A stretch of 64,000 nt of DNA from Lysobacter gummosus (GTDB lineage Bacteria > Pseudomonadota > Gammaproteobacteria > Xanthomonadales > Xanthomonadaceae): the NCBI RefSeq assembly GCF_001442805.1, contig NZ_CP011131.1, positions 3,844,001 through 3,908,000 on the forward strand. The letters run 5' to 3'. A program made the translations under genes and the position numbers. Each line of letters starts with the position of its first letter. The first letter of the stretch is position 1. The notes below the pieces were generated by a model. The model was given only the letters and a program-made list of their open reading frames with translations. It did not search any database and was not told where the DNA came from. Of the stretch, positions 4,458 through 48,945 are shown one piece after another.

Positions 4458-5042
4458 TCACTGCGGCGTCGCCACGGTCGCGAAGTGAAAAATGAACTCG
4501 CCGTCGCGGCCGTCGGCGGAAACCACGCGCACCGGCGCCAGCGGTTTGTCGGCGACCAAGGTGGCGGTGCCGCTGGCCGACAGCTTGCTGATCAGCCCGG
4601 CGGAGCGGCCGTTGATCTTGATCAGCATCTCCTGCCCCGGGACCAGCATCACGCGGCCCATCGACGGGTCGCTGCCGCGCGGAGTGACGTTGCGGCCTTC
4701 CTCGGTGTCGATGTAGTCGCGCGAAGGCAGTTCGAACAGATCCTGGCCGCCGGCGCTGACCTGGAACGACCACGACGTGCTGCCGCTGGTGCCGTCGTTG
4801 ATCACTTCGATCTTTTCCAGCGTCAGCAGGACCGAATAGCGCGAAGGTGCCTTGGGCAAGTCCGGCTTGACCGCGGGCGTGGCGGCCGGCGCCTGCGCCG
4901 TCGGCGCGGGCGGCGTCTTGTCCTTGAGGCCGGTGATATCGCGCACGTTGTTGACCAGCGTGGTCAGAGCGACCAGAAAAGCGACCGCGGCGACCGAAAT
5001 CGCGGTGACGCGGGTGTACCAAGGCTTGTTCTCGTCGCTCAC
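4458..5042 (-). CDS. Single-pass membrane protein, hypothetical
   Basis: From the preferred GTG start the product has 194 residues: a short cytoplasmic N-terminus (SDENKPWYTR), one transmembrane helix (about 11-31, TAISVAAVAFLVALTTLVNN), a Pro/Ala linker and a beta-rich soluble domain with YSVLLTLEKIEVINDG. GTG is chosen because an AGGGGA-type site lies upstream; an ATG at 5105 would add 21 basic residues and cannot be excluded. Family not recognised. Confidence 0.6.
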   Translation of the reverse strand: MSDENKPWYTRVTAISVAAVAFLVALTTLVNNVRDITGLKDKTPPAPTAQAPAATPAVKPDLPKAPSRYSVLLTLEKIEVINDGTSGSTSWSFQVSAGGQDLFELPSRDYIDTEEGRNVTPRGSDPSMGRVMLVPGQEMLIKINGRSAGLISKLSASGTATLVADKPLAPVRVVSADGRDGEFIFHFATVATPQ

Positions 5043-5138
5043 TGACCTGTTTCCCCTGTCCTTGCCTGGGCCGTTGCCCATGCGGCGCAATCTACTGCAC
5101 CGCATGGCCGCCGCGCCATCGCACGGCGGCCGTCCGCG

Positions 5139-6896
5139 TCAGGGCCGGCTCGGCAGTACCACGGCCTGGCCGACCGGATTGCGCGGATCGGTGCCGCCGG
5201 ACAAGGTGTTGTCTTGCTTGTTCCACATCACCGTCTGCAGATTGCCCCAGGGCGATTCGGCGGCGTTGACCTTGTGGCCCATGGCCTGCAGCTTGGCGAC
5301 GGTGTCGGCGTCGAGCGCGCCGGCTTCGGCCGAGATCACGTCGGGCAACCACTGATGATGGATGCGCGGCTGACCGGCGACCTGCTGCGGCGCCAGGCCG
5401 GCGTCGTAGGCCAGTACCGCCAGCAGCACCTGGGTGATGATGCGGCTGCCGCCGGGCGCGCCGACCGCGATCACTTTGTCCTTGGACTCCATGAAGCTCG
5501 GCGTCATCGAGCTGAGCATGCGCTTGCCCGCTTCCGGCGCGTTGGCGGCGAAGCCCATCACGCCGAAGGCGTTCGGCGTGCCCGGGCGCAGGGCGAAATC
5601 GTCCATCTCGTTGTTGAGCAGCACGCCGGTGCCCGGCGCGACCAGGCCCGAGCCGTACAGCAGGTTGACGGTCTGGGTCGCCGAGACGCGGTTGCCGTCG
5701 TGATCGATGATCGAGAAATGCGTGGTCTCGTCGTCTTCCAGCGGCGCCGGCTGGCCCGACAGCAGATCGCTGGGCGTGGCCTTGTCCGGATGGATGGTGG
5801 CGCGCAGGCCGGCGGCGTAATCGGCGCTGGTCAGGCGCGCCAGGGGGATCTTCACGAAGTCCGGATCGCCCAGGTAGATGGTGCGGTCGCGATACGCGCG
5901 GCGCATGGCCTCGGCGATGATGTGGGTGCGGTGCGCGGGATCGAGCTTGCTCAGGTCCCAGCCTTCGAGAATCTGCAGGATCTCGGCGAAGGCCACGCCG
6001 CCCGACGACGGCGGCGGCGCGGTGACGATGTCCCAGCCGCGGTACTTCAGGCGCAACGGTTCGCGTTCGCGCACCGTGTAGCCGGACAGTTCCTCGGGCT
6101 TCCATTGGCCGCCTTCTTCCTTGACCGAAGCGAGCAGCTTCTGCGCGACTTCGCCGCGATAGAAGCCGTCGAAGCCCTTTTCGCCCAGCAGCTCCAGCGT
6201 GCGCGCCAGATCGGGTTGCTTGAAGATTTCGCCGACCTTGGGCGGATCGCCGTCGGCCAGATAGACCTCGCGCGTGCCGCGGTAACGCTCCATCACTTCG
6301 CGTCGGCTGCCGTAGCTCTTTTCCAGGCGCGCGTAGACCGGGAAGCCCTCGCGGGCGATGCGGATCGCCGGCGCCAGCGACGTCTTCAGCGGCAGCTTGC
6401 CGTACTTCTGCGCAAGATGGACCAGCGCCGCCGGCAATCCGGGAATGCCCGCCGACCACGGCCCGTTGACGGAGCGATCGCGGTTGAGTTCGCCCTTCTC
6501 GTCCAGGAACGCCGCCGGCGTCGCCGCGGCCGGCGCGGTTTCGCGCGCGTCCACGAAGATGTCGCGATTGGTCTTGGCGTCGTGCAGCAGGAAGAAGCCG
6601 CCGCCGCCGATGCCGGAACTGACCGGTTCGACCACCGACAGGGTCGAGGACACCGCGATCGCCGCATCGAAGGCGTTGCCGCCCTGGCGCACGATTTCCA
6701 GGCCGGCCTGCGACGACAACGCATGGGCGCTGGCGATGACGGTCCCGGGCGGATGCGCGGCGGCGGATTTCGCCGTCTCGGCGGGCGCGGCCTTGGCGAC
6801 GGGCGCCTTGGACAGCGCGGGCGCGGCGATCAGCAACAACGAAGCCAGTAAGCAGGCAGACATCAGACCGGCTCGCGGTCGCGGCGCCTTTCGCAT
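5139..6896 (-). CDS. ggt: Gamma-glutamyltransferase (GGT, glutathione hydrolase)
   Basis: Hydrolyses or transfers the gamma-glutamyl group of glutathione; made as a precursor that self-cleaves in the periplasm. The 585-residue product has a signal peptide (MRKAPRPRAGLMSACLLASL start, cleavage after ALSK or nearby), the large-subunit motif SSGIGGGGFFLLHD, the autoprocessing/catalytic Thr391 in ETTHFSIID, and the small-subunit glycine-rich GAPGGSRI. The ATG at 6896 is chosen for AGGAG about 7 bases upstream; it lies 5 bases after the ferredoxin stop, indicating co-transcription. Confidence 0.95.
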   Translation of the reverse strand: MRKAPRPRAGLMSACLLASLLLIAAPALSKAPVAKAAPAETAKSAAAHPPGTVIASAHALSSQAGLEIVRQGGNAFDAAIAVSSTLSVVEPVSSGIGGGGFFLLHDAKTNRDIFVDARETAPAAATPAAFLDEKGELNRDRSVNGPWSAGIPGLPAALVHLAQKYGKLPLKTSLAPAIRIAREGFPVYARLEKSYGSRREVMERYRGTREVYLADGDPPKVGEIFKQPDLARTLELLGEKGFDGFYRGEVAQKLLASVKEEGGQWKPEELSGYTVREREPLRLKYRGWDIVTAPPPSSGGVAFAEILQILEGWDLSKLDPAHRTHIIAEAMRRAYRDRTIYLGDPDFVKIPLARLTSADYAAGLRATIHPDKATPSDLLSGQPAPLEDDETTHFSIIDHDGNRVSATQTVNLLYGSGLVAPGTGVLLNNEMDDFALRPGTPNAFGVMGFAANAPEAGKRMLSSMTPSFMESKDKVIAVGAPGGSRIITQVLLAVLAYDAGLAPQQVAGQPRIHHQWLPDVISAEAGALDADTVAKLQAMGHKVNAAESPWGNLQTVMWNKQDNTLSGGTDPRNPVGQAVVLPSRP

Positions 6897-37810: not shown

Positions 37811-39202
37811 TCAGTAGGCGTTGGCCACGCCCGCCGCCTCGTAGGCATCGACGTGACCGCTGCCGACTTCGAAACGCTGGCGGCCGGCCATCGGATCGGC
37901 GGTCTGGCTGAGGATCTGCTTGACCTCCAGCGGCTTGAGCGACGGCTTGGCCTCGAACAGCAAGGCGACGATGCCGGCCACGTGCGGGGTCGCCATCGAG
38001 GTGCCGCTCATGTGGGTGTAGAACGGCAGCCGCGCGCCGAGGGCGAGATCCTGCTGAGTCGCCAGCAGCGGCAGCGCACCGGTCAGGGCGCGGGTGGAGA
38101 CGATGTCCACGCCGGTCGCCACCAGGGTCGGCTCGTTGACGTAGGTCCAACTCTGCCCGTCGGGCATGATGAACTGGCCGGTTTCGCCCGGATTGCCGCG
38201 CGAGGAGAAGTCGGCCAGCGTGCCGTCCTTGTTGCCGGCGCCGACCGAGATCACCCACGGCGCCTGCGCATAGGGATTGTGCGTGTTGGCGCCGGGGCCG
38301 TCGTTGCCGGCGGCGAAGACGCTGACGATGCCGTTCTTGTAGGCCTCGTAGGTCGCCAGGCTGACCGGATCGGTCGGATCGAACGTGCCCGAGCTGCCCC
38401 AGGAATTGGAGATCACCTTGATCGGCGCGGCGAAGCTGTTCTTGTGCGAGATCGCGTAGTCGAAACCGCCGACCGCGTCGAGGATGGAAATCACCGCGCC
38501 CGAGCCGTAGCCGACCAGATCCGCGCCGGTGGCGACGCCTCGATACAAACCGGCCGACTGCGCGCCGCTGCCGCCGACCGTGCCGGCGCAATGGGTGCCG
38601 TGGCCGGAACTGATATCGGTGTTGAGCTGGTTTTCGAGCACCGTCACCGGCAGGAAATCCAGCACCGAATGCAGGTTGGTCAGCGCCTGCACGTTCTGTA
38701 CCACGCGCTGGCCGTACTTCAGATCGGCGTGGGTGGCGTCGATGCCGGAGTCGTTGATCATCACCGTCACGCCCTTGCCGGTGAACGGCGTAGTGCGGCC
38801 GAAATCGCCCGGATTGGCTTGCACCCGGTTGACCCCGGACAGTTCGCGCGCTTCCTGGTTGTAGTAGGTCAGCGGCTTGTTGAGGTGGATCGACAGCACG
38901 TCGCCGCGCTGGGCCAGCGCGCGGATCTGCGCCGGCGTGGCCAGGGCGCCGGCGATCGGCAACGCGCGCATGCTCACGCCCTGGTCGATGCCGAGCAGCT
39001 TCAGCGCCTGCAGCTGACTGTCGCGCAGCGGGCCGGGCTGGTTGTAGGACACGATCACTTCCAGCGGCTTGGCGGCTTCGGCGGTGTCCAGCGCGCTTTG
39101 CAGCGCGGCGCCCAGACGGGCTTCGGCGAAGCTGAGCCCGCTGGCCATCATGCCGATGGCCAGGGCGGACAGTTTGAGGATGTTGCGGCGGCTGTGTCGC
39201 AT
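37811..39202 (-). CDS. S8 family (subtilisin-like) serine peptidase with Tat-type signal
   Basis: A 463-residue secreted protease. The N-terminus MRHSRRNILKLSALAIGMMA carries a twin-arginine motif (SRRNILK), suggesting Tat export. A propeptide-like segment (about 30-110) precedes the catalytic domain: Asp151 in INDSGID, His201 in SGHGTHCAG, catalytic Ser402 in SGTSMATPH, with oxyanion-type SNSWGSSG and AAGNDGPG. ATG 39202 is used; an in-frame ATG 27 bases upstream is possible. Monocistronic, with its own terminator, divergent from the DUF6689-like gene. Confidence 0.92.
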   Translation of the reverse strand: MRHSRRNILKLSALAIGMMASGLSFAEARLGAALQSALDTAEAAKPLEVIVSYNQPGPLRDSQLQALKLLGIDQGVSMRALPIAGALATPAQIRALAQRGDVLSIHLNKPLTYYNQEARELSGVNRVQANPGDFGRTTPFTGKGVTVMINDSGIDATHADLKYGQRVVQNVQALTNLHSVLDFLPVTVLENQLNTDISSGHGTHCAGTVGGSGAQSAGLYRGVATGADLVGYGSGAVISILDAVGGFDYAISHKNSFAAPIKVISNSWGSSGTFDPTDPVSLATYEAYKNGIVSVFAAGNDGPGANTHNPYAQAPWVISVGAGNKDGTLADFSSRGNPGETGQFIMPDGQSWTYVNEPTLVATGVDIVSTRALTGALPLLATQQDLALGARLPFYTHMSGTSMATPHVAGIVALLFEAKPSLKPLEVKQILSQTADPMAGRQRFEVGSGHVDAYEAAGVANAY

Positions 39203-39551
39203 GTCGGAGCTGACTCCCTGCGTGGCCATGACGGCCGGGTGGCTCACCTTGGCGTCCGCGGCGGCGACGGCGACATCCGGAAGACTGCCCAGCCGGCATA
39301 GGGAAAAACCCCTACAGACCGGCCGGCAAACCCGCAGTAGGCTGGTCAAACCCGGACCACCGCCGCAAGATCGGTGCGACGAGGTGCCGGGTTCGCAACA
39401 AATCCGCGCCGGATGAGGTATTGGGTTCCGCACGGTTCGCATCGGCCCAGGCCGGCGCGGCCACCGCCCGGAATCGCCAGGGGCCCGGCCATCGGGTTCA
39501 GTTTCGGCCCTGAGCCTTGCGCGAGGCGGCCGCCGTACAGGGGGACAGGAC
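39203..39551. other. Divergent promoter region of the subtilase and the DUF6689-like gene
   Basis: About 350 bases between the two starts. No gene or clear operator symmetry was seen. AGGGAG lies ~13 bases before the subtilase ATG on the minus strand, and GGGGGACAGGAC precedes the plus-strand ATG. Confidence 0.5.
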
Positions 39552-40430
39552 ATGAGGCATTCGATCGCGCCGCAGCGGAGTTCGCACCGGATCGCCCGCT
39601 GGCTGAGCGGCTGCGCGCTGGCGCTGGGATTCATCGCGGCCGGCGCCGCGCAGGCGCAGGCCCTGCCGGTCAGCGTCAGCGCTTCGGGCAACCACGCCGA
39701 GGCCTCGGTGAGCCTGCCCGGGCTGCCGGGGACGGTTCTGGCCGAAGTGCTGCTGGATTTCGAAGACGCCTCCGGGCTCAGCCCGTCGAGCCTGGGCGCC
39801 AGCGCCAAGCTGGTGAGCCTGAGCGACACCGACCTGCTCGCGCGCCTGCCCGATGTGGACACGACCAAGCTGCAATCGAGCCTGCCGCTGCTGATCACCC
39901 TGCAGCCTCCGCGCTACGGCGGATTGAGTTTCCACGGCACCGGCCGGGTCGAGGTCCACACCCACGCTCTGCCCTACGCCGCCGGCAGCCGCCTGCGCCT
40001 GTTCAAGGCGCCGCTGGGCGGCGCGTTCTACGACATCACCGATGAGATCGCCGCCGGCAGCGTGCGCGCGCGCGGCACTTACGGCGGCTTCTCGCAGTTC
40101 CTGATCCTGCTCGACCTGCGCCCGACCGACGTGGCGATCGCCGCCAAGGTGCAGCGCCTGCGCGATCGGGTCGATGCGTTGCCGTGGAGCGAACGCGCCG
40201 CCTTCGACGCGCTGCTCGACGATGTCGAAAGCGCGCTGGCGATAAACGACTACGCCGCAGCCCTGAGCGCCGCCGATGCTGTGCGCAGCCGTGCCGAGTC
40301 GCGCGCCGGCAGCTATCTGCCCGACGAATGGCGCGCCACCCGCACCCACCACAACCACGCCGGCGAACTCGCCGCGGGCGCGGCGACGCTGCGCTTCAGC
40401 ATCGCCTTCGCGCGCGACTACGGCCCCTGA
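39552..40430 (+). CDS. Secreted hypothetical protein, DUF6689-like
   Basis: A 292-residue product: signal peptide (about 1-36, ending GAAQAQA), an N-terminal beta-domain (VSVSASGNHAEASVSLPGLP), a middle domain with RLRLFKAPLGGAFYDITDEI and a helical C-terminal part (about 185-260). The pattern matches a Lysobacter family I associate with DUF6689. AGGAC lies before the ATG. Divergent from the protease and ~150 bases upstream of the signalling operon; it could be a periplasmic partner or substrate of either. Confidence 0.6.
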   Translation: MRHSIAPQRSSHRIARWLSGCALALGFIAAGAAQAQALPVSVSASGNHAEASVSLPGLPGTVLAEVLLDFEDASGLSPSSLGASAKLVSLSDTDLLARLPDVDTTKLQSSLPLLITLQPPRYGGLSFHGTGRVEVHTHALPYAAGSRLRLFKAPLGGAFYDITDEIAAGSVRARGTYGGFSQFLILLDLRPTDVAIAAKVQRLRDRVDALPWSERAAFDALLDDVESALAINDYAAALSAADAVRSRAESRAGSYLPDEWRATRTHHNHAGELAAGAATLRFSIAFARDYGP

Positions 40431-40460: not shown

Positions 40461-40512
40461 GCGGAAGTGAGCAGTGAGCGACAGTCGATGGCGGACGTCG
40501 CTCACTTCCCGC
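40461..40512. repeat. GTGAG-type inverted repeat, copy 2
   Basis: GCGGAAGTGAGC at the left is answered by GCTCACTTCCCGC at the right, with internal GTGAGCGAC/GTCGCTCAC. Related to the inverted repeat at 357-430. Lies between the DUF6689-like gene and the FHA gene. Confidence 0.6.
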
Positions 40513-40580
40513 GCGCGCGCGTCCGATTTCCGTCTCGCAACCCGCTGCCGCGTCCGCCCCACCGCGCGTAAGATGCGGCC

Positions 40581-41546
40581 ATGCCGGCGAGACTGATCGC
40601 TTACCCGCCCGAAGCCGCAGCCATCAGCCGGTGGATACCCGCGGGCTCGCGCCTGCGCATCGGCCGCGACGCCGATTGCGATCTGCGCATCGAACACCCC
40701 ACCGTCTCGCGCAGCCACGCCGAATTGCGTCACGACGCCGACGGCTGGCATCTGCTCGACATGGGCAGCAAGAACGGCTCGCATGTGGACGGCATCGAGA
40801 TCAGCGACACCCACCTCGACCGCAGCGACTGCTGGCTGCGTTTCGGCGACGTGTTGTGCGAGTTTTCGGTGCACGAGGAAGCCAGCGCGCAGGAACAACA
40901 GCAACGCCAGCGCGAACGCCGTGATCTGTCGGCGGCGTGGACCCGGCGGATCGAAGCCGGACGGCTCGGCATCGGCGCCGCCCCGTCGGCGGACACGCCC
41001 GCGCCACTGCCCACCGCCGTCCCGCCCGCGCGCGAAACCGGCGCTGGGCTGGCCGACGACATCCTGCGCGGCGTGGTCGAACTGGCCGGTTGCAGCCGCG
41101 GGTTCCTGCTGCTGGCGCAGGATAACGACTTCAGCGTCCGCGCCAGCCTGATGCTCGATCCCAACGTCCTGCAGGAACACGGCTTCTCCGGCAGCGTCGG
41201 CGCGGTCCAGCGCTGCCTGTCCGAACGCCGGCCCATCGTGGTCAACTGGATCGCGGACGAATTGTGGCTGGCGCGCCGCGCCTCGGTGCTGGCCGGCGGC
41301 CTCAAGAGCCTGATCTGCCTGCCGCTGCTGCATGCAGGGCGCGTGCTCGGCGCGGTCTACGCCGACCGCCGCGGCCCGGGCGAGGCAATCAGCGAATTCG
41401 ATCTGGAACTGCTGTGCGCGTTCGCCGACAGCGCCGCGGTCTGGCTGCTGGCGCAGCGCGCGTTCGACGCGCTCGCGCCCGAGTCGCCGACGGGCGCTGC
41501 GCCGCGCTGGACCCGCATCGTCGGCGCGCAGATCACCACGCCATGA
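40581..41546 (+). CDS. FHA-GAF domain protein
   Basis: A 321-residue protein with an N-terminal FHA phosphothreonine-binding domain (about 1-100: LRIGRDADCDLRIEHPTVSR, SRSHAELRH, LDMGSKNGSHVDG) and, after a Pro/Ala linker, a GAF-like domain (about 160-305: LKSLICLPLLHAGRVLGAVY). It could bind the phosphorylated kinase encoded next and sense a small molecule. Its stop overlaps the kinase start by 4 bases. Confidence 0.88.
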   Translation: MPARLIAYPPEAAAISRWIPAGSRLRIGRDADCDLRIEHPTVSRSHAELRHDADGWHLLDMGSKNGSHVDGIEISDTHLDRSDCWLRFGDVLCEFSVHEEASAQEQQQRQRERRDLSAAWTRRIEAGRLGIGAAPSADTPAPLPTAVPPARETGAGLADDILRGVVELAGCSRGFLLLAQDNDFSVRASLMLDPNVLQEHGFSGSVGAVQRCLSERRPIVVNWIADELWLARRASVLAGGLKSLICLPLLHAGRVLGAVYADRRGPGEAISEFDLELLCAFADSAAVWLLAQRAFDALAPESPTGAAPRWTRIVGAQITTP

Positions 41547-44500
41547 CCGACGCCACCGCGACCGGGCTGTACCAGGCCCACGCCCTGGCGCCCGGCAGCG
41601 TATTGGCCGGGCGTTTTCGCATCGAGTCGCTGCTCGGCGTCGGCGGCATGGGCGTGGTCTATCGCGCTCACGACACCACGCTGGGCATCGACATCGCGCT
41701 GAAACTGCTGCGGCCGGAACTGGCCGCGCGCGCCGACGCGTTCGGACGTTTCCGCCAGGAACTGCTGACCGCGCGCCAAGTCTCCAGCCCGCGCGTGGTG
41801 CGCATCCACGATCTGGTCCGCCACGACACGCAGTGGCTGATCGGCATGGACCTGATCGACGGCGAGGCGCTGGACAAACGCCTGGACCGCGACGGCGCGC
41901 TGCCCTTCGACGACGCGATCCGCATCGCCCGGCAGATCGCGGAAGGCCTGGCGGCGGCGCACGCGCGCGGCGTGATCCATCGCGATCTCAAGCCCGCCAA
42001 CGTGCTGATCGATCGCCAGGGCGATGCCTACATCAGCGATTTCGGCGTGGCCCGCTCGCTGGCCGGCAGCGGCCTGACCCAGACCGGCGCGATCGTCGGC
42101 ACGCCCGACTATCTTTCGCCCGAACAGGCGCGCGGCGAAGGCGCCGACGCGCGCAGCGATCTGTACTCGCTGGGATTGATCCTGCACGAAATGCTGACCG
42201 GCAAGATGCCGTTCGACGGCGGCACGGTCGGCGAAGTGCTCGCCCAGCGCATGTCGCGCACGCCGCCGCCGGTGAGCCGGCTGCGCGCGGACACGCCGCA
42301 ATGGCTGGTGCGCCTGGTCGATCGGCTGCTGCGTTCGCAGCCGGCGCATCGCATCGGCAGCGCGGACGAAGTCATTCGCGCGATCGATACGCGTCATGTG
42401 CCGCGCGATTGGCGGCCGACGCGCGCGATGTGGATCGGCGCGGCCAGCGCCGCCGCGCTCGCGGCCGCGGTCGCCGCCGGCGCGCTGTGGTGGCCGCGCG
42501 CGACGCCTCCGGCGAACGCGAGCGCAAGCACTGCGGCCAAGGCGCGACCGCTTCATCGATTGTTCGTGATGCCGCTGCAGGCGCCCGCGGATGCGCTCGA
42601 TCCCGCGTTGGAAGCGGCACTGACCGCGCTGCTGCGACAATCGCTGGAACTGGCTCCCACCATCGCCGTGGTCGATGAGGAACGCAGCCAACAGGCGCTG
42701 CGCCAGCTCGACCCCAGCGGCGCGGCGCCGCCGGATACGGCGAGCTTGCTGCGCGTCGCCGTGGCGGATCGCGCGCTGGCGATCCGGCTCGACCGCGCCG
42801 GCGCGCAGTGGCGGGCTAGTGCATCGATCCAGCAAGATCGCAACGACACTGCGATCGCCGCGAATCAAGCGGCCGAACCGCTGGCCGCGGTGGCCGGGTT
42901 GTTCTCGTCGAACGATTTCGCCCGCGCCCTCGGGATCGGACTCGATATCGGTCCTAATCCGCTATCGCCGTGGACAAGCGATTCGATTCCGTCGCTCGCG
43001 CCCTACGGCCGCGGCGTACTGGCGCGGCGCGGCAGCGACATCGAAACCTCACGCAAGGCCTTCGTGGAGGCCACCGAGCGCGCGCCCGGCTTCGCCGCGG
43101 CATGGCTCGCGCTGGCCGAAGCCGCGCAGGCCGGCGGCGACATCGACGCCGGCTACGCGGCGCTGGAACAAGGCGAACGCGCGGCCGCCGCGCAGCCGCT
43201 GTTGTTGCAACGCCTGCGCGCCGAACGCGCCCAGCTCGACGGCGACGCCGATGCGGCCGCCGCGTACTGGCGCGGACGCGTCGGCGCGAGTCCCGACGAC
43301 ACCCGCGCCGCGCTCGGCCTGGCCCGCGCGCTGGGCGCGGGCGGCGACGCCGCGGGCGCGATCGCGCAGTTGCGCGCGCTGACCGCGCGCGATCCCGACG
43401 ACCCGCGCGCGTGGTTCGAACTGGGCAAGTACTCGATCCTGCACGGCCAGGCGCAACAAGCGGTGGACGACTATCTGGTGCGCGCGCTGGTGTTGTTCAA
43501 GCGCAGCGGCAACCGCTACGGCGAAGGCGAAACCGACAATGCGCTCGGCATCGGCTATGCGCGCCTGGGCCAAAACGACCACGCCGAAGCGCAGTACCGC
43601 CAGGCGGTGGAACTGCGCCGCGCGGTCGGCAACCGGCGCGGGCTGGCCACCAGCCTGCGCAATCTCGGCAACGTGCTGGTGCTGACCGGACAGTTCGACC
43701 AAGCCGAGCGCAGCCTGTTGCAAGCGCGCGAACTGCACGCCGCGCTCGACGATCGCCACGGCCTGGCCGCGGTCGAGAACGAACTGGGCCTGCTCGCGGA
43801 AGAACGCGGCGACTACCCCGCCGCGCTGGCCGCGTTCCGGCGCGCGCTGTCGGCCTGGCAACGCGCCGGCGACGCCGGCGGCATCGCCCAGGCGCTCAAC
43901 GATATCGGCTTCGCCCAGTACCAACTCGGCGCCTACGACGATGCCGAGGCCTATCTGGTGCAATCGCGCGAGGCCTATTCCAAGCTCGACGACGAAACCG
44001 GGCGCATCCGCACGTTGCAGAACCTCGGCCAGTTGGCGACCGCGCGCGGCCAGTGGCCGCAGGCGCGCGAACGGCTGCAGTCTTCGCTCGACGATGCGGT
44101 GTCCAAGCAGATGATGGAAGAAGCGGCGGTGAGCCGGCGTAATCTGGCCGAGCTGGAACTGATGCAGGGGCGAATCGGCGCGGCGCTGCAGCAGATCGAT
44201 CAGGCCGGCGCCTTGTTCGCCCAGCGTCGCGACGCGCGCGGACAGGTCGATGTCGGCCTACTGCGCGCGCAGGCGCTGCTGCGCGCCGACGCCGATGGCG
44301 ACGCGCGCAAGGCGCTGGACGCGCTGGCGCCGCGAGTGGCCGCGGCTTCGTCGGAACAACGCGGCATCGCCGCCTTGCTGCGCGCGCAGTTGGCGCGGCG
44401 CGCGGGCGATCGCGACGGCGAACGCCGCGCCCATGTCGACGCGCAACGCGATGCCCGCCAATCCGGCGTGCGGGTGTTGCAGTTGCAGACCGCGCTGCAG

Positions 44501-44896
44501 AGCACCGCCGCCGGGCAGATGCCCGATCCCGCGCTCGATGCGCAGATCGCAGCGCTCGGCCACGCCGGCCTGCGCTTGCAGTGGGCGCAGGCGCGGATGC
44601 GCGCGGCGCTGGCGCACGACGACGCGGCGACCGCGCTGCAGGTTTATCGCGACGCGCAGCCGCTGCTGCGTCGCGGCGACAATATCGAAGCCGGCGCCCT
44701 GCACTCACTCGCCGCGCAGGCCCAGCGCGCGGCCGGCGACGATGCCGCGGCCGCCAGCGCCGACACGCAGGCGCTGGCGGCGCAACAGCGCCTGCGCGAA
44801 CAACTGCCGCCGGCCCTGCGCGCCGGCCACGACCTCAGCCGCGCCCAGGCCGCCAACGCGCCCGAACGCGAGCGCACCCAGGCGCCTCGGCCATGA
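41543..44896 (+). CDS. Transmembrane Ser/Thr protein kinase with TPR-rich C-terminus
   Basis: A 1117-residue product. Kinase domain (about 25-285): GVGGMGVVY, Lys54, HRDLKPANV (146-154), DFGVARS (from 166), activation segment GTPDYLSPEQARGEG. One transmembrane helix (~296-318), a TolB/CadC-like domain (~335-470) and about ten TPR-type repeats (~500-1000) with pairs such as AALAAFRRALSAW. The topology puts the TPR part outside the cytoplasm. Overlaps both neighbours by 4 bases. Confidence 0.93.
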   Translation: MTDATATGLYQAHALAPGSVLAGRFRIESLLGVGGMGVVYRAHDTTLGIDIALKLLRPELAARADAFGRFRQELLTARQVSSPRVVRIHDLVRHDTQWLIGMDLIDGEALDKRLDRDGALPFDDAIRIARQIAEGLAAAHARGVIHRDLKPANVLIDRQGDAYISDFGVARSLAGSGLTQTGAIVGTPDYLSPEQARGEGADARSDLYSLGLILHEMLTGKMPFDGGTVGEVLAQRMSRTPPPVSRLRADTPQWLVRLVDRLLRSQPAHRIGSADEVIRAIDTRHVPRDWRPTRAMWIGAASAAALAAAVAAGALWWPRATPPANASASTAAKARPLHRLFVMPLQAPADALDPALEAALTALLRQSLELAPTIAVVDEERSQQALRQLDPSGAAPPDTASLLRVAVADRALAIRLDRAGAQWRASASIQQDRNDTAIAANQAAEPLAAVAGLFSSNDFARALGIGLDIGPNPLSPWTSDSIPSLAPYGRGVLARRGSDIETSRKAFVEATERAPGFAAAWLALAEAAQAGGDIDAGYAALEQGERAAAAQPLLLQRLRAERAQLDGDADAAAAYWRGRVGASPDDTRAALGLARALGAGGDAAGAIAQLRALTARDPDDPRAWFELGKYSILHGQAQQAVDDYLVRALVLFKRSGNRYGEGETDNALGIGYARLGQNDHAEAQYRQAVELRRAVGNRRGLATSLRNLGNVLVLTGQFDQAERSLLQARELHAALDDRHGLAAVENELGLLAEERGDYPAALAAFRRALSAWQRAGDAGGIAQALNDIGFAQYQLGAYDDAEAYLVQSREAYSKLDDETGRIRTLQNLGQLATARGQWPQARERLQSSLDDAVSKQMMEEAAVSRRNLAELELMQGRIGAALQQIDQAGALFAQRRDARGQVDVGLLRAQALLRADADGDARKALDALAPRVAAASSEQRGIAALLRAQLARRAGDRDGERRAHVDAQRDARQSGVRVLQLQTALQSTAAGQMPDPALDAQIAALGHAGLRLQWAQARMRAALAHDDAATALQVYRDAQPLLRRGDNIEAGALHSLAAQAQRAAGDDAAAASADTQALAAQQRLREQLPPALRAGHDLSRAQAANAPERERTQAPRP

Positions 44897-45609
44897 GCGA
44901 AGCGACCGAACTGCGCGAGCTGTACCAGCAATTGCTGCAGCGACTGGAACGCAACGAACGCGAATTCCGCCGCCTCGGCCGCGCGGTGTGGAAGGTGCAG
45001 GAAGACGAACGCCGCCGCATCGCCCGCGAACTGCACGACGGCGTCGGCCAGAACCTCACCGTGCTCAAGCATCGTCTGCACGAACTCGACGCCGCGCTGG
45101 CGCCGCGCGACGACGCGCTGCGAGGCACTGTCGCCGCCGCGCTGGCGCTGTGCGGCGATACGTTGGAAGACACGCGCGAACTCTCGCGCATGCTGCGTCC
45201 ACCGATCCTCGACGACCTGGGCCTGGAGGCGGCGCTGCGGTGGCTGGTGCGCAGCCAGGGCCAGAGCAGCGGCGCGCAGGTCACCTTGGAGATCGACGCG
45301 CTGCCGCCGCTGGACGGCGAATTGCAGACGCTGTTGTTCCGGGTAACCCAGGAAGCGCTGACCAACGCGGCCAAGCACGCCGGCGCCGGCGAAATTCAAG
45401 TCGTCCTGCATCGGCGCGGCGCCAGCCTGCTGCTGGAAATCTTTGATAACGGCCGCGGCTGCGATCCCGAACTCGCCCTGGCCAGCGGCGGCAACGGCCT
45501 GGGCGGCATGCGCGAGCGGCTGCGCTTGTACGGCGGCCAGCTGCAATTGCGCAGCGCCGTCGGCGAAGGCATGCGGGTCAGCGCCCGTGTTCCTCTCGAC
45601 TACACATGA
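44893..45609 (+). CDS. HisKA_3-type sensor histidine kinase without input domain
   Basis: A 238-residue cytosolic NarX/DesK-type kinase. A coiled-coil start (LRELYQQLLQRLERNEREFR), phosphoacceptor His48 in RRRIARELHDGVGQNLTVLK, and an ATP-binding domain with TQEALTNAAKHAGAG, DNGRGCDP and GGNGLGGMRERL. No membrane helix or sensory domain, so its input must come from a partner, plausibly the adjacent Ser/Thr kinase. Overlaps the next start by 4 bases. Confidence 0.93.
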   Translation: MSEATELRELYQQLLQRLERNEREFRRLGRAVWKVQEDERRRIARELHDGVGQNLTVLKHRLHELDAALAPRDDALRGTVAAALALCGDTLEDTRELSRMLRPPILDDLGLEAALRWLVRSQGQSSGAQVTLEIDALPPLDGELQTLLFRVTQEALTNAAKHAGAGEIQVVLHRRGASLLLEIFDNGRGCDPELALASGGNGLGGMRERLRLYGGQLQLRSAVGEGMRVSARVPLDYT

Positions 45610-46328
45610 CCGCCGCGCCGCCGCGTTCAGACGACGCTTCGCGGCTTGACCTGCCGCTAGCGTCTGCGCACGCTGAGCCCATGCCGCCCGCGCCCATCCG
45701 CGTCCTGATCGCCGACGACCACACCATGGTCCGCGAAAGCCTGGTGAGCCTGTTGCGCAGCGGCGGCGTCGATATCGTCGGCCAGGCCGCGGACGGACTG
45801 GACACGCTGAAACAGGCGCAAGCGCTGCGTCCGGACGTAGTCGTCACCGACCTGTCGATGCCGCGCCTGAGCGGGCTGGAAGTGATCCGCCGACTGTTCG
45901 ACAGCCTGCCCGAGGTGCGCGTGCTGGTGCTGACCATGCATCAGGAAGACGAGTACATCCTGCAGGCCGTGCGTGCCGGCGCCACCGGTTACATGGTCAA
46001 GGACAGCCCGGCCTCGGAACTGCTCGCCGCGGTGCACAGCGTGCACACCGGCAAGGGTTATTTCGGCCCGCAGGCGGCGCGCGCGCTGGCCGAGCAACTG
46101 CGCCATCCCGAACGCGACCTCGGCAACCCCTACGGCCGCCTGACCCCGCGCGAACGCGAGGTGTTCCATCTGATCGCCGAAGGGCTGACCACGAAGGAAA
46201 TCGCCCGCCAGTTGACGATCAGTGTGAAGACCGCGGAGAACCATCGCGCGCGGGTGCTGGAGAAGCTGGCGGTACGCAATACCGCGGAGCTGGTCCGCTA
46301 CGCCCTGCGCAAGGGTTTGCTGGATTGA
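45606..46328 (+). CDS. NarL/LuxR-type response regulator
   Basis: A 240-residue regulator. Receiver domain with VLIADDHTMVRESL, phosphoacceptor Asp82 in VVTDLSMPRLSG and Lys in GYMVKDSPASELL; LuxR-type DNA-binding domain with RLTPREREVFHLIAEG and KEIARQLTISVKTAENHRARV. The first ~25 residues are non-homologous; an internal ATG at 45681 (MPPAPIRVL) is a possible start, but the 4-base overlap supports 45606. Final gene of the four-gene operon. Confidence 0.93.
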   Translation: MTAAPPRSDDASRLDLPLASAHAEPMPPAPIRVLIADDHTMVRESLVSLLRSGGVDIVGQAADGLDTLKQAQALRPDVVVTDLSMPRLSGLEVIRRLFDSLPEVRVLVLTMHQEDEYILQAVRAGATGYMVKDSPASELLAAVHSVHTGKGYFGPQAARALAEQLRHPERDLGNPYGRLTPREREVFHLIAEGLTTKEIARQLTISVKTAENHRARVLEKLAVRNTAELVRYALRKGLLD

Positions 46329-46531
46329 GGGGCGCGCCGCCTCGATGGCGGCGGCGAAGCGTCCGGGCGCGTCGGGGCCGCGGACTGACCCGACCCGGCA
46401 CGGCCTTGGCCTGAACAGCCGTCCCGCCGCTTCCCGACCCCAGCCGCGAAACCGCCGATCCGGCCCTGCCGGCGCCACCATGCGCCGTAGTATCCTCGCC
46501 TTCCCAACGGTCGATTGAATGGAGCGGCGGC

Positions 46532-47014
46532 ATGAAAGCAGCGGTCTGGGTTCGGGTCTTCGGTCTGGCGCTGGTGTTCGCGCTGCTGGCCGCTTGCAAG
46601 TCCGGGCCGGTACGCCGCGTTTCCGAACCGGCCGCGCGCATCCAGCAGCTGACCGTGCGCGCCGACGGCAGTTGGTCGGTGGACGTGCGCATCGAAAACT
46701 TCAGCAGCATCCCCATGCAGTTCGACCGCCTGGACCTGCAGCTCAAGCTCGGCGAAGACAGCGCCGGCCAGTTGCAGGCGCAGCCGGCCCTATCGATCGG
46801 CCCGGAATCGGCCGACGTGGTCACCGTCGCCCTGAAGCCCTCGGGCAACGCCAGGCTCGCCATCGCCGACGCCCTCGCCGGCGGACGCAGCCTCAATTAC
46901 AGCCTCAAGGGCGACATCCTCGCCACGCCCGACCAGAACAAGCAGCGCACTTTCACCATCGACCGCAGCAGCGCGCTGAGTCCTGCGCCTGGGCTGCCGG
47001 GCGTGATGCGGTAA
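46532..47014 (+). CDS. LEA14/WHy-like lipoprotein
   Basis: A 160-residue product with signal peptide and lipobox (FALLAACKS, Cys near 24), then a small beta-sandwich-type domain with IQQLTVRADGSWSVDVRIEN and PMQFDRLDLQLKLGE, resembling LEA14/water-stress-hypersensitive-like bacterial lipoproteins. Not certain. Followed by a GGGAATC repeat. Confidence 0.65.
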   Translation: MKAAVWVRVFGLALVFALLAACKSGPVRRVSEPAARIQQLTVRADGSWSVDVRIENFSSIPMQFDRLDLQLKLGEDSAGQLQAQPALSIGPESADVVTVALKPSGNARLAIADALAGGRSLNYSLKGDILATPDQNKQRTFTIDRSSALSPAPGLPGVMR

Positions 47015-47015
47015 A

Positions 47016-47149
47016 GCCGGGAATCGGGATTCGGGAATCGCCAGAGCAAAAGCGATTCATCGGCCTCCGGCACCCTCCCGCCCGCGTACCTCTCCCGCTT
47101 TTCCGATTCCCGATTCCCTATTCCCCATTCCCGATCCCCTATTCCCGGA
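47016..47149. repeat. GGGAATC-type inverted repeat, copy 2
   Basis: Short GGGAATCGGGATTC words at the left face a longer run of GATTCCC/CATTCCC words at the right. It is directly before the acyl-CoA dehydrogenase start. Confidence 0.85.
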
Positions 47150-47154
47150 CAACC

Positions 47155-48945
47155 ATGAGCACCTACCAAGCCCCCCTCACCGACATGCGTTTCGTCCTGT
47201 TCGACGTGCTCGGCGCCGAAGCGCAGTTCCAGCGCCTGGGTTATGCCGACGCTACCCGCGACACGCTCGATGCCGTGCTCGAAGAAGGCGCGCGCTTCAA
47301 CGAAACCGTGCTGGCTCCGCTCAACAGCATCGGCGACCAGATCGGTTGCAGCCACGATAAAGCCACCGGCGCGGTCACCACGCCGCCGGGCTTCAAGCAG
47401 GCCTATACGCAGTTCGTCGAAGGCGGCTGGTCGGGTCTCACCGCCGAGGTGAAGTTCGGCGGCCAGGGCCTGCCGCATGCGGCCGGCGTGCCGCTCAAGG
47501 AAATGATCGACGCGGCCAACCTGGCCTGGGGCAACTTCCCGCTGCTTTCGCATGGCGCCACCGAGGCGTTGCTGCATCACGGCGAGGAGTGGCAGCAGGA
47601 GGTCTTCCTCAAGCCGCTGGTGGAAGGTCGCTGGACCGGCACCATGTGCCTCACCGAACCGCATTGCGGCACCGACCTGGGCCTGCTCAAGACGAAGGCC
47701 GAACCGCAGGCCGACGGCTCGTATTCGATCAGCGGCACGAAGATCTTCATCACCGCCGGCGAGCACGACCTCACCGACAACATCATCCATCTGGTGCTCG
47801 CGCGCCTGCCCGACGCACCGGCCGGCAGCAAGGGCATTTCCTTGTTCATCGTGCCGAAGATCAAGGTCGCGCGCGACGGCAGCATCGGCGAGGCCAACGC
47901 GGTGCGCTGCGGCAGCCTGGAACACAAGATGGGCATCCACGGTTCGGCCACCTGCGTGATGAACTTCGACGGCGCCCAGGGCTATCTGATCGGCCAGCCG
48001 AACAAGGGCCTGATGGCGATGTTTACGATGATGAACACCGCTCGCCTCGCAGTCGGCCTGCAGGGCCTGGGCCTGTCGGACCGCGCGCTGCAGAACGCGC
48101 TGCGCTACTCGCGCGACCGTCTGCAGATGCGCTCGCTGTCGGGCACCAAGTTCCCGGAACTGCCGGCCGATCCGATCATCGTCCACCCCGACGTGCGGCG
48201 CATGCTGCTGACCTGCAAGGCGCTGGTCGAAGGCGGCCGCGCGATGGGTTACGACGCCGCGCTGCAAGTCGATATCGCTCACGCCGCGCCGGAGGAAAAG
48301 GAACGCAATGAGGCCGATGCGCTGATCGGTTTCATGACGCCGATCGTCAAGGCCTGCCTGACCGAATGGGGCGTGGAATGCACGTACCACGCGCTGCAGT
48401 GTTTCGGCGGCCACGGCTACATCGCCGAGCACGGCATGGAGCAACTCGCCCGCGACGCGCGCATCACCACCTTGTACGAAGGCACCACCGGCATCCAGGC
48501 GCTGGACCTGCTCGGCCGCAAGGTCATGCAGCTGCAGGGCGCGGGCCTGCAGGTGATGCTGGCGAAGATCGAAGCGTTCTGCGCGGAAAACGAGGGCAAT
48601 GCGGCGGTGGCCGAATTCGTCGCGCCGCTGCGCAAGGTGGCGGCCGAATGGATGCAGCTGACCATGAGCATCGGCAAGCGCGCGGCGGCCAATGCCGACG
48701 AAGTCGGCGCGGCGTCGTACGACTACCTGTTCTATTCCGGCTACGTCTCGCTGGCCTACTGGTGGGCGCGCAGCGTCGCCGCGGCCGAGGCCTCGTCGCA
48801 GTCGCAGCTGTTCAAGGACGGCAAGCGCGAGACCGCGCGTTTCTACTTCAGCCGGATTCTGCCGCGCACGTTGGCGCACAAGGCCGCCATCGACAGCGGC
48901 ACCGCGCCGTTGATGAGCCTGAGCTCGGAAGGCTTCGGCGGCTGA
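47155..48945 (+). CDS. Acyl-CoA dehydrogenase (DmdC/C-terminal-domain type)
   Basis: A 596-residue FAD enzyme that introduces a 2,3-double bond in acyl-CoA. It begins MSTYQAPLTDMRFVLFDVLG, characteristic of the long bacterial subfamily. MCLTEPHCGTDLGLLKTKAE (FAD/substrate loop), ISGTKIFITAGEHDL, and the active-site region ARITTLYEGTTGIQALDLLG with the conserved Glu of YEGTTGIQ. A C-terminal extension of ~130 residues is typical. Electrons go to ETF. No other beta-oxidation gene is adjacent. Confidence 0.95.
   Translation: MSTYQAPLTDMRFVLFDVLGAEAQFQRLGYADATRDTLDAVLEEGARFNETVLAPLNSIGDQIGCSHDKATGAVTTPPGFKQAYTQFVEGGWSGLTAEVKFGGQGLPHAAGVPLKEMIDAANLAWGNFPLLSHGATEALLHHGEEWQQEVFLKPLVEGRWTGTMCLTEPHCGTDLGLLKTKAEPQADGSYSISGTKIFITAGEHDLTDNIIHLVLARLPDAPAGSKGISLFIVPKIKVARDGSIGEANAVRCGSLEHKMGIHGSATCVMNFDGAQGYLIGQPNKGLMAMFTMMNTARLAVGLQGLGLSDRALQNALRYSRDRLQMRSLSGTKFPELPADPIIVHPDVRRMLLTCKALVEGGRAMGYDAALQVDIAHAAPEEKERNEADALIGFMTPIVKACLTEWGVECTYHALQCFGGHGYIAEHGMEQLARDARITTLYEGTTGIQALDLLGRKVMQLQGAGLQVMLAKIEAFCAENEGNAAVAEFVAPLRKVAAEWMQLTMSIGKRAAANADEVGAASYDYLFYSGYVSLAYWWARSVAAAEASSQSQLFKDGKRETARFYFSRILPRTLAHKAAIDSGTAPLMSLSSEGFGG

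Follow-up and report, generated by a model that had tools for sequence, protein, structure and literature searches.

A conserved gene group in Lysobacter gummosus links a Ser/Thr kinase, an FHA-GAF protein and a two-component pair to DUF6689 and an operator-like repeat

The stretch of Lysobacter gummosus DNA analyzed here (the window: 64,000 nucleotides of contig NZ_CP011131.1, from a single-contig genome of 6.06 Mb) carries four consecutive genes for an FHA-GAF protein, a Ser/Thr kinase, a histidine kinase (HK) and a NarL-type response regulator (RR), together called the cassette below. An initial annotation of this DNA had proposed that the four form a signalling unit. Comparison with related loci indicates that the group is real but was drawn too small: a DUF6689 gene belongs to it, and so, often, does a flanking S8 subtilase gene, neither of which the annotation had included; it also passed over the operator-like repeat described below. 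The four frames originally given (40581-41546, 41543-44896, 44893-45609 and 45606-46328) and their domains agree with the coordinates and with a Pfam scan of seven window proteins, which found FHA and GAF, Pkinase and TPR, HisKA_3 and HATPase_c, and Response_reg and GerE in the respective frames. The features of the locus, in window positions, are as follows.

37811-39229, minus strand: S8 subtilase, 472 residues (PF00082, E 6.7e-43, scanned within the longer frame 37811-39895), divergent from DUF6689.
39299-39319, plus strand: candidate operator TAGGGAAAAACCCCTA plus CAGAC at the -35 position (de novo motif).
39338-39343, plus strand: possible -10 element TAGGCT of the DUF6689 promoter, a TAnnCT-like element behind the operator (read from the sequence).
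39552-40430, plus strand: DUF6689 protein, 292 residues (PF20396, E 2.9e-107).
40569-40574, plus strand: -10 element TAAGAT, 6 bases 5' of the FHA-GAF ATG, implying a leaderless start (locus comparison).
40581-41546, plus strand: FHA-GAF protein, 321 residues (PF00498, PF01590).
41543-44896, plus strand: Ser/Thr kinase, 1117 residues, with an N-terminal TxTG tail, kinase domain, hydrophobic segment and TPR region (PF00069, TPR families).
44893-45609, plus strand: soluble HisKA_3 histidine kinase, 238 residues (PF07730, PF02518).
45646-45674, plus strand: promoter-like pair before the regulator gene, TTGACC at 45646-45651 and CACGCT at 45669-45674 (locus comparison).
45681-46328, plus strand: NarL-type response regulator, likely true start 45681 (listed frame 45606-46328; PF00072, PF00196).

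The initial annotation had staked its proposal on the gene order being conserved outside this strain, and conservation is what was found. The order DUF6689, FHA-GAF, kinase, HK, RR on one strand is kept in 53 of the 60 loci read (the family loci and a further 22 drawn from the order and class). It recurs in the family, in the order and in L079, which comes from a different order and keeps it at 24-38% identity. The 53 include L040 and L092, where the RR match is partial and lies near a contig or stretch end. Five of the seven exceptions (L056, L060, L064, L093, L099) are cut by contig ends, and two, L043 and L102, are incomplete, L102 (genome G523) having a partial DUF6689 match and no cassette. 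At L043/L080 (G026) a lone FHA-GAF gene stands near an acyl-CoA dehydrogenase gene with the remaining cassette missing, possibly a relic of loss. A chance neighbourhood was rejected because the gene order is kept over such large divergence.

Genome-wide counts show the same linkage. DUF6689 occurs in 37 of 149 family genomes, all 37 of which have the cassette, and FHA-GAF orthologues occur in 38 (a count we read from the list of places; best E 9e-23 or better, next FHA match 2e-11); the DUF6689 set equals the FHA-GAF set minus G026. Full-length FHA-GAF was found at 26 places in 25 of 250 order genomes (E 1e-41 or better, followed by a gap to 3e-29), and every one adjoins DUF6689. In wider samples, DUF6689 was detected in 3 of 369 class genomes, and the same 3 were recovered among 299 phylum genomes. 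Of 41 loci from named genomes, which overlap largely in species with the first locus set, 34 are complete, 6 are cut and 1 is a stand-alone extra DUF6689 copy; the genomes with the locus include Lysobacter, Luteimonas, Vulcaniibacterium, Arenimonas, Silanimonas, Rhodanobacter thiooxydans and two Xanthomonas sp.

The signalling proteins retain the residues on which their activities would depend. In FHA-GAF, G28, R29, S43 and H46 are present in 58/58 sequences and N65 and G66 in 57/58, preserving the G-R, S-x-x-H and N-G motifs of the FHA binding face, and the protein may therefore be a phosphothreonine reader. The kinase has the residues of an active Hanks-type Ser/Thr kinase: K54 (52/53), D148 and D166 (both 53/53) and T187 (51/53), which we take to be the catalytic Lys, HRD Asp, DFG Asp and activation-loop Thr. 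In its TxTG tail, T5 is conserved in 45/46 and T7 in 44/48 non-gap rows, with variable neighbouring positions, and hydropathy indicates one hydrophobic segment near 297-315. PASTA repeats were absent from the Pfam scan of the kinase, and NCBIfam model NF033483 scored 288.7 against a cut-off of 450 bits. At L053 (G101) the kinase domain match falls in two pieces (about 4568-5438 of the oriented locus), which may reflect a frameshift or a sequencing error.

The HK, with HisKA_3 and HATPase domains and intact H and N boxes (H48 and N158 in 53/53), belongs to the DesK/DegS class. It was originally described as lacking a sensor domain, and this description holds: Pfam found none, and by a crude hydropathy measure a hydrophobic segment is present in 0/53 orthologues. 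The RR is of the NarL/FixJ type, with PF00196 and conserved D82 (51/51), T110 (50/51) and K132 (51/51). The nearest NCBIfam models for the pair, MctS and MctR, stayed below their cut-offs (141.8 against 700 and 181.5 against 300 bits). Among the seven window proteins scanned there was neither an extracytoplasmic function (ECF) sigma factor nor any other sigma factor, and the Sigma70_r4_2 match falls on the helix-turn-helix of the RR.

The DUF6689 protein scores 358 bits against PF20396 (curated cut-off 27) and is 95% identical to one from an unclassified Lysobacter. An N-terminal hydrophobic stretch detected by hydropathy in 56/56 members suggests that it is probably secreted. Its AlphaFold2 model (predicted local distance difference test score, pLDDT, 89.9) is a beta-sandwich with a helical C-terminus, and a sequence search of the PDB returned just seven ribosomal S20 matches at E 0.31 or worse. 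In the open-licence PMC literature searched we found no paper naming the family and none on this module or gene combination; the locus gives a first context for an uncharacterised family. Second DUF6689 copies were seen as a stand-alone gene without the operator in L114 (apparently the same as L081; Lysobacter sp. Root494) and in tandem before the cassette copy in L107 (apparently L046; Lysobacter sp. CFH 32150).

In 34 of 57 loci an S8 subtilase gene next to DUF6689 is transcribed divergently from it; such genes also lie 3' of the RR gene in 15 and on the same strand 5' of DUF6689 in 2, and 42 of the 57 have at least one near by. Among 79 family genomes, the subtilase subfamily was found in 21 of 23 with DUF6689 (and the cassette) and in 0 of 56 others, at our own threshold of E 1e-100 or better, which leaves less similar S8 proteases uncounted. 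The window protein is a genuine S8 member: across aligned relatives (matches of at least 350 residues), D160, H210 and N309 are present in 52/52 and S411 in 51/52, D160, H210 and S411 presumably being the triad and N309 the oxyanion Asn. A twin-arginine (Tat)-like N-terminus, RRNILKLS, was noted by eye, and the protein is probably secreted. Short subtilases of about 465-475 residues are encoded in the window, in some relatives and in L069-L071, while most others are frames of about 660-895 residues, so the difference may stem from loss or gain of a C-terminal segment.

A de novo motif search recovered an inverted repeat, TGRGGGAAAWCCCCTA, 5' of DUF6689 in 39 of 40 upstream regions (27 from the first locus set and 13 named, some of them close relatives), with a log-likelihood of 322 compared with 22-27 for three shuffles, which ran with fewer random starts. 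The single region without a site belongs to the stand-alone copy at L114, which was accordingly rejected as an operator target. The same repeat emerged independently from 27 other loci (log-likelihood 117 versus 22-29), at a posterior of at least 0.99 in 17 and of 0.81 in one more; L063 and L065 were in neither set, and L067 was left out of the second, having already matched the first matrix. In an alignment of 30 sites, the repeat is mostly followed by sAGAC and then, about 18 bases on in the window, by a TAnnCT-like -10 element whose columns are weak and whose spacing varies. If transcription starts 7 bases past the -10, the operator centre would lie near -43.

Within the window the best operator score is 30.7 and the next 9.9, and the L. 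gummosus genome has one match in total at up to two mismatches. Across the 149 family genomes, the 21-base form was found in 10 at one mismatch and in 16 at two, 15 of its 17 sites at up to two mismatches lying before DUF6689; the 16-base core repeat was found in 10 genomes at 12 sites, 9 of them before DUF6689. Every genome with either match has the cassette, no match was found in the 112 genomes without DUF6689, and reversed controls gave 0. The patterns were derived from these promoters, so that matches there are expected and the information lies in no other regulon being seen to use the site. The strict 21-base form also misses sites, 21 of 37 cassette genomes having no match even at two mismatches, and hypergeometric values (3e-7 and 1e-11) were not used as proof, given the kinship among the genomes and the origin of the patterns in these very promoters. 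The two off-locus 21-base sites are in a Lon/HU region (G014:C61) and near an aminotransferase and an ABC gene (G015:C3); of the three core sites not before DUF6689, one is beside the cassette before an FG-GAP gene (G126), one is in G126:C59 and one is inside reading frames in G143:C94. No recurrent second operator target emerged from these sites. By these comparisons the operator-like repeat is conserved and almost private to the locus. The G126 case (L068, 3539-3598) is a perfect core repeat before an FG-GAP repeat gene adjoining the cassette and is possibly an extra target.

The initial annotation also had the four genes joined by three 4-base ATGA overlaps. These strings are present (41543-41546, 44893-44896 and 45606-45609), and the first two overlaps recur, FHA-GAF/kinase in 33/57 loci and kinase/HK in 25/53 (window counted in both), but the start codon behind the third was probably misassigned. 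In 22 of 23 loci grouped with the window (shuffled mean 0.004), the ATG matching window position 45681 is closely preceded by a TTGAC-N17/18-CAnnnT promoter, mostly following cTTGAC-N17/18-CAnnnT by 6-8 bases; the grouped loci (27, of which 23 have a readable RR) were picked by eye after the sequences had been seen, with no tree. An unselected set of 34 named loci with an RR match has this promoter type before the RR gene in 25 cases, compared with 1 of 29 other loci, and it was absent before the other genes (0/27, 0/24, 0/27 and 0/27). Protein-level matches in the named relatives mostly start between residues 13 and 31 of the 240-residue RR reading. The conserved promoter before that ATG makes 45681 the probable start of the RR, with a promoter of its own, and leaves the 45606 overlap probably unused. 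The case is strong without being closed: three relatives (L105, L113, L136) match back to RR residues 2-7, which speaks against this start, and HK/RR 4-base overlaps occur in more distant relatives (17/53, window counted).

Before FHA-GAF, TAAGAT at leaderless spacing was found in 23 of 27 grouped loci and TAnnnT in 27/27, with a Shine-Dalgarno-like sequence in 0/27 and no conserved -35 found; in 31 other loci the counts were 4 for TAAGAT and 7 for TAnnnT. That this promoter shares the operator was rejected, as no such conserved upstream columns were seen. Because conserved promoters precede both FHA-GAF and RR, a single transcript for all four genes is improbable in window-like loci.

We consider it reasonably likely, at a probability of roughly 60%, that the group forms one envelope-signalling module running from the kinase through FHA-GAF, HK and RR to DUF6689 and possibly the subtilase. 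The proposal builds on the observed linkage, intact active sites, operator-like repeat and promoter layout. The kinase would cross the inner membrane and expose its TPR region to the periplasm, a topology suggested by the single hydrophobic segment and by charge. Once stimulated, it would autophosphorylate, probably on the activation loop and the conserved TxTG motif, and FHA-GAF would dock on the resulting phosphothreonines and, modulated by its GAF domain, recruit or switch on the soluble HK. As expected from family knowledge, the HK would phosphorylate the RR, which could then bind the inverted repeat at 39299-39314, an operator predicted by comparison, and activate the DUF6689 promoter and possibly that of the divergent subtilase. 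DUF6689 and the protease would act outside the cytoplasm and, more speculatively, might feed back on the TPR region. Such a Ser/Thr-to-His/Asp route is plausible because the catalytic and phosphothreonine-binding residues are conserved. Crosstalk of this kind usually has to be reconstructed from dispersed genes; in this case the kinase, phosphothreonine reader, HK and RR travel as one inherited set with the predicted operator and output, so that each step is testable in one compact system.

Several observations weigh against the module. No confident operator was found in 10 of the 27 other loci, the promoter alignment used 30 of 39 sites and left out nine poorer forms, and it is by linkage alone that the repeat is assigned to the cassette's regulator. 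All transmembrane and signal calls come from hydropathy alone, and 7 of 57 kinases, one of them truncated, fall under the hydropathy threshold. The N-terminal helix of the HK has no conserved Ser/Thr, the only candidate being position 31 (Ser in 29/53). Since FHA-GAF and RR have promoters of their own, the genes need not be co-expressed. In 15 of 57 loci (the stretch ending early in at least L065 and L093) there is no S8 subtilase near by, which makes the protease an optional member. Finally, each phosphotransfer, protein contact and DNA-binding step was inferred.

Known systems resemble the proposed module in part. The actinobacterial pairs PknB-GarA and PknH-EmbR figure in titles cited by PMC6213207. 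In both pairs, an FHA protein is recruited by phosphothreonines of the kinase; unlike there, FHA is here fused to GAF and placed before a His-Asp relay. EspA of Myxococcus xanthus, an FHA histidine kinase linked to Ser/Thr kinases, likewise has FHA, Ser/Thr kinase and HK in one pathway, but it unites FHA and HK in one protein, whereas here they are separate; FHA-GAF scored 37.5 against the EspA model (cut-off 1400). IreK is a PASTA kinase, and IreK-CroS is not known to have an FHA adaptor or a locked gene module; the window kinase, in contrast, lacks PASTA, and its module has an FHA adaptor and a fixed gene set. The nearest whole analogue would be DegS/DegU with subtilisin, DegS/DegU controlling subtilisin AprE in Bacillus subtilis. 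Common to both would be a cytoplasmic HK without a membrane sensor, a NarL-type regulator and an S8 protease output, but DegS has a sensing domain, and here the kinase, FHA-GAF, DUF6689 and often the subtilase share one locus. A Ser/Thr kinase input is a further likeness, YbdM phosphorylating DegS according to PMC12189002, which also describes IreK raising CroS activity in Enterococcus faecalis, again a transmembrane Ser/Thr kinase feeding a histidine kinase. PknS-EcfK of Xanthomonas citri, as presented in PMC13147305, is a kinase-transmembrane-periplasmic TPR receptor in which PknS phosphorylates an ECF sigma factor; the window kinase, from the same bacterial family, has this build as far as hydropathy indicates, but it is flanked by a two-component pair, FHA-GAF and DUF6689, with no adjacent ECF sigma factor found.

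The alternative that survives best, possible although we would bet against it, is that DUF6689 is an input (a periplasmic ligand or kinase co-receptor) and not an output. The protein is probably secreted, is strictly linked and adjoins a kinase whose TPR region probably lies outside the cytoplasm. The operator nevertheless sits at the DUF6689 gene, and because a feedback ligand would be compatible with this placement, the alternative is not exclusive of the module proposed above. We think it unlikely that the kinase phosphorylates the HK, or the RR, directly, with FHA-GAF acting not as the relay but as a scaffold or inhibitor, or as an independent cytoplasmic sensor of small molecules. CroS/IreK and DegS/YbdM are precedents for direct phosphorylation of an HK by a Ser/Thr kinase (PMC12189002), and DegS is also a cytoplasmic HK. 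Set against this, FHA-GAF is just as strictly kept (26/26 places beside DUF6689) and its phosphothreonine-binding residues are intact in 58/58, which suggests an active reading role.

An elaboration of the module into a protease-gated loop is tentative and, to our minds, doubtful. The subtilase would process secreted DUF6689, the product would bind the periplasmic TPR region, and the kinase would drive HK/RR via FHA-GAF; in the same scheme the RR might act at little more than a single promoter region genome-wide, the one serving DUF6689 and the protease, and DUF6689 might be a ZU5/GAIN-like sandwich with a conserved Phe/Trp-Ser-x-Phe motif. If true, this would be, to our knowledge, the first case of a Ser/Thr kinase feeding a His-Asp relay that is dedicated to it and has a private output.

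Two parallel branches at one locus, with kinase and FHA-GAF regulating other things and HK/RR answering another partner via the HK coiled coil, appear quite unlikely. The separate conserved promoters before FHA-GAF and RR in window-like loci would suit this arrangement, and the link between the two halves of the cassette is drawn from sequence. The linkage is, however, kept across large divergence (24-38% identity in L079), kinase/HK 4-base overlaps are frequent (25/53), and no HK has a hydrophobic segment. Finally, it is improbable that another regulator binds the repeat before DUF6689: although the RR was assigned to it indirectly and the pattern was learned from the DUF6689 promoters themselves, matches even to the bare core repeat, minus its -35 part, came from 10 of 149 genomes, each carrying the cassette, whereas a global regulator's site should recur elsewhere, and the 7-2-7 spacing and class II position suit a NarL-type dimer (family knowledge).

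Two minor features adjoin the group. An acyl-CoA dehydrogenase gene (window 46519-48945) often lies downstream in relatives with varying inserts, and it was rejected as a member because it is often split off by these inserts or not seen in the stretch. A GC-rich inverted repeat at 40463-40509, between DUF6689 and FHA-GAF, was noted by eye and is perhaps a terminator.

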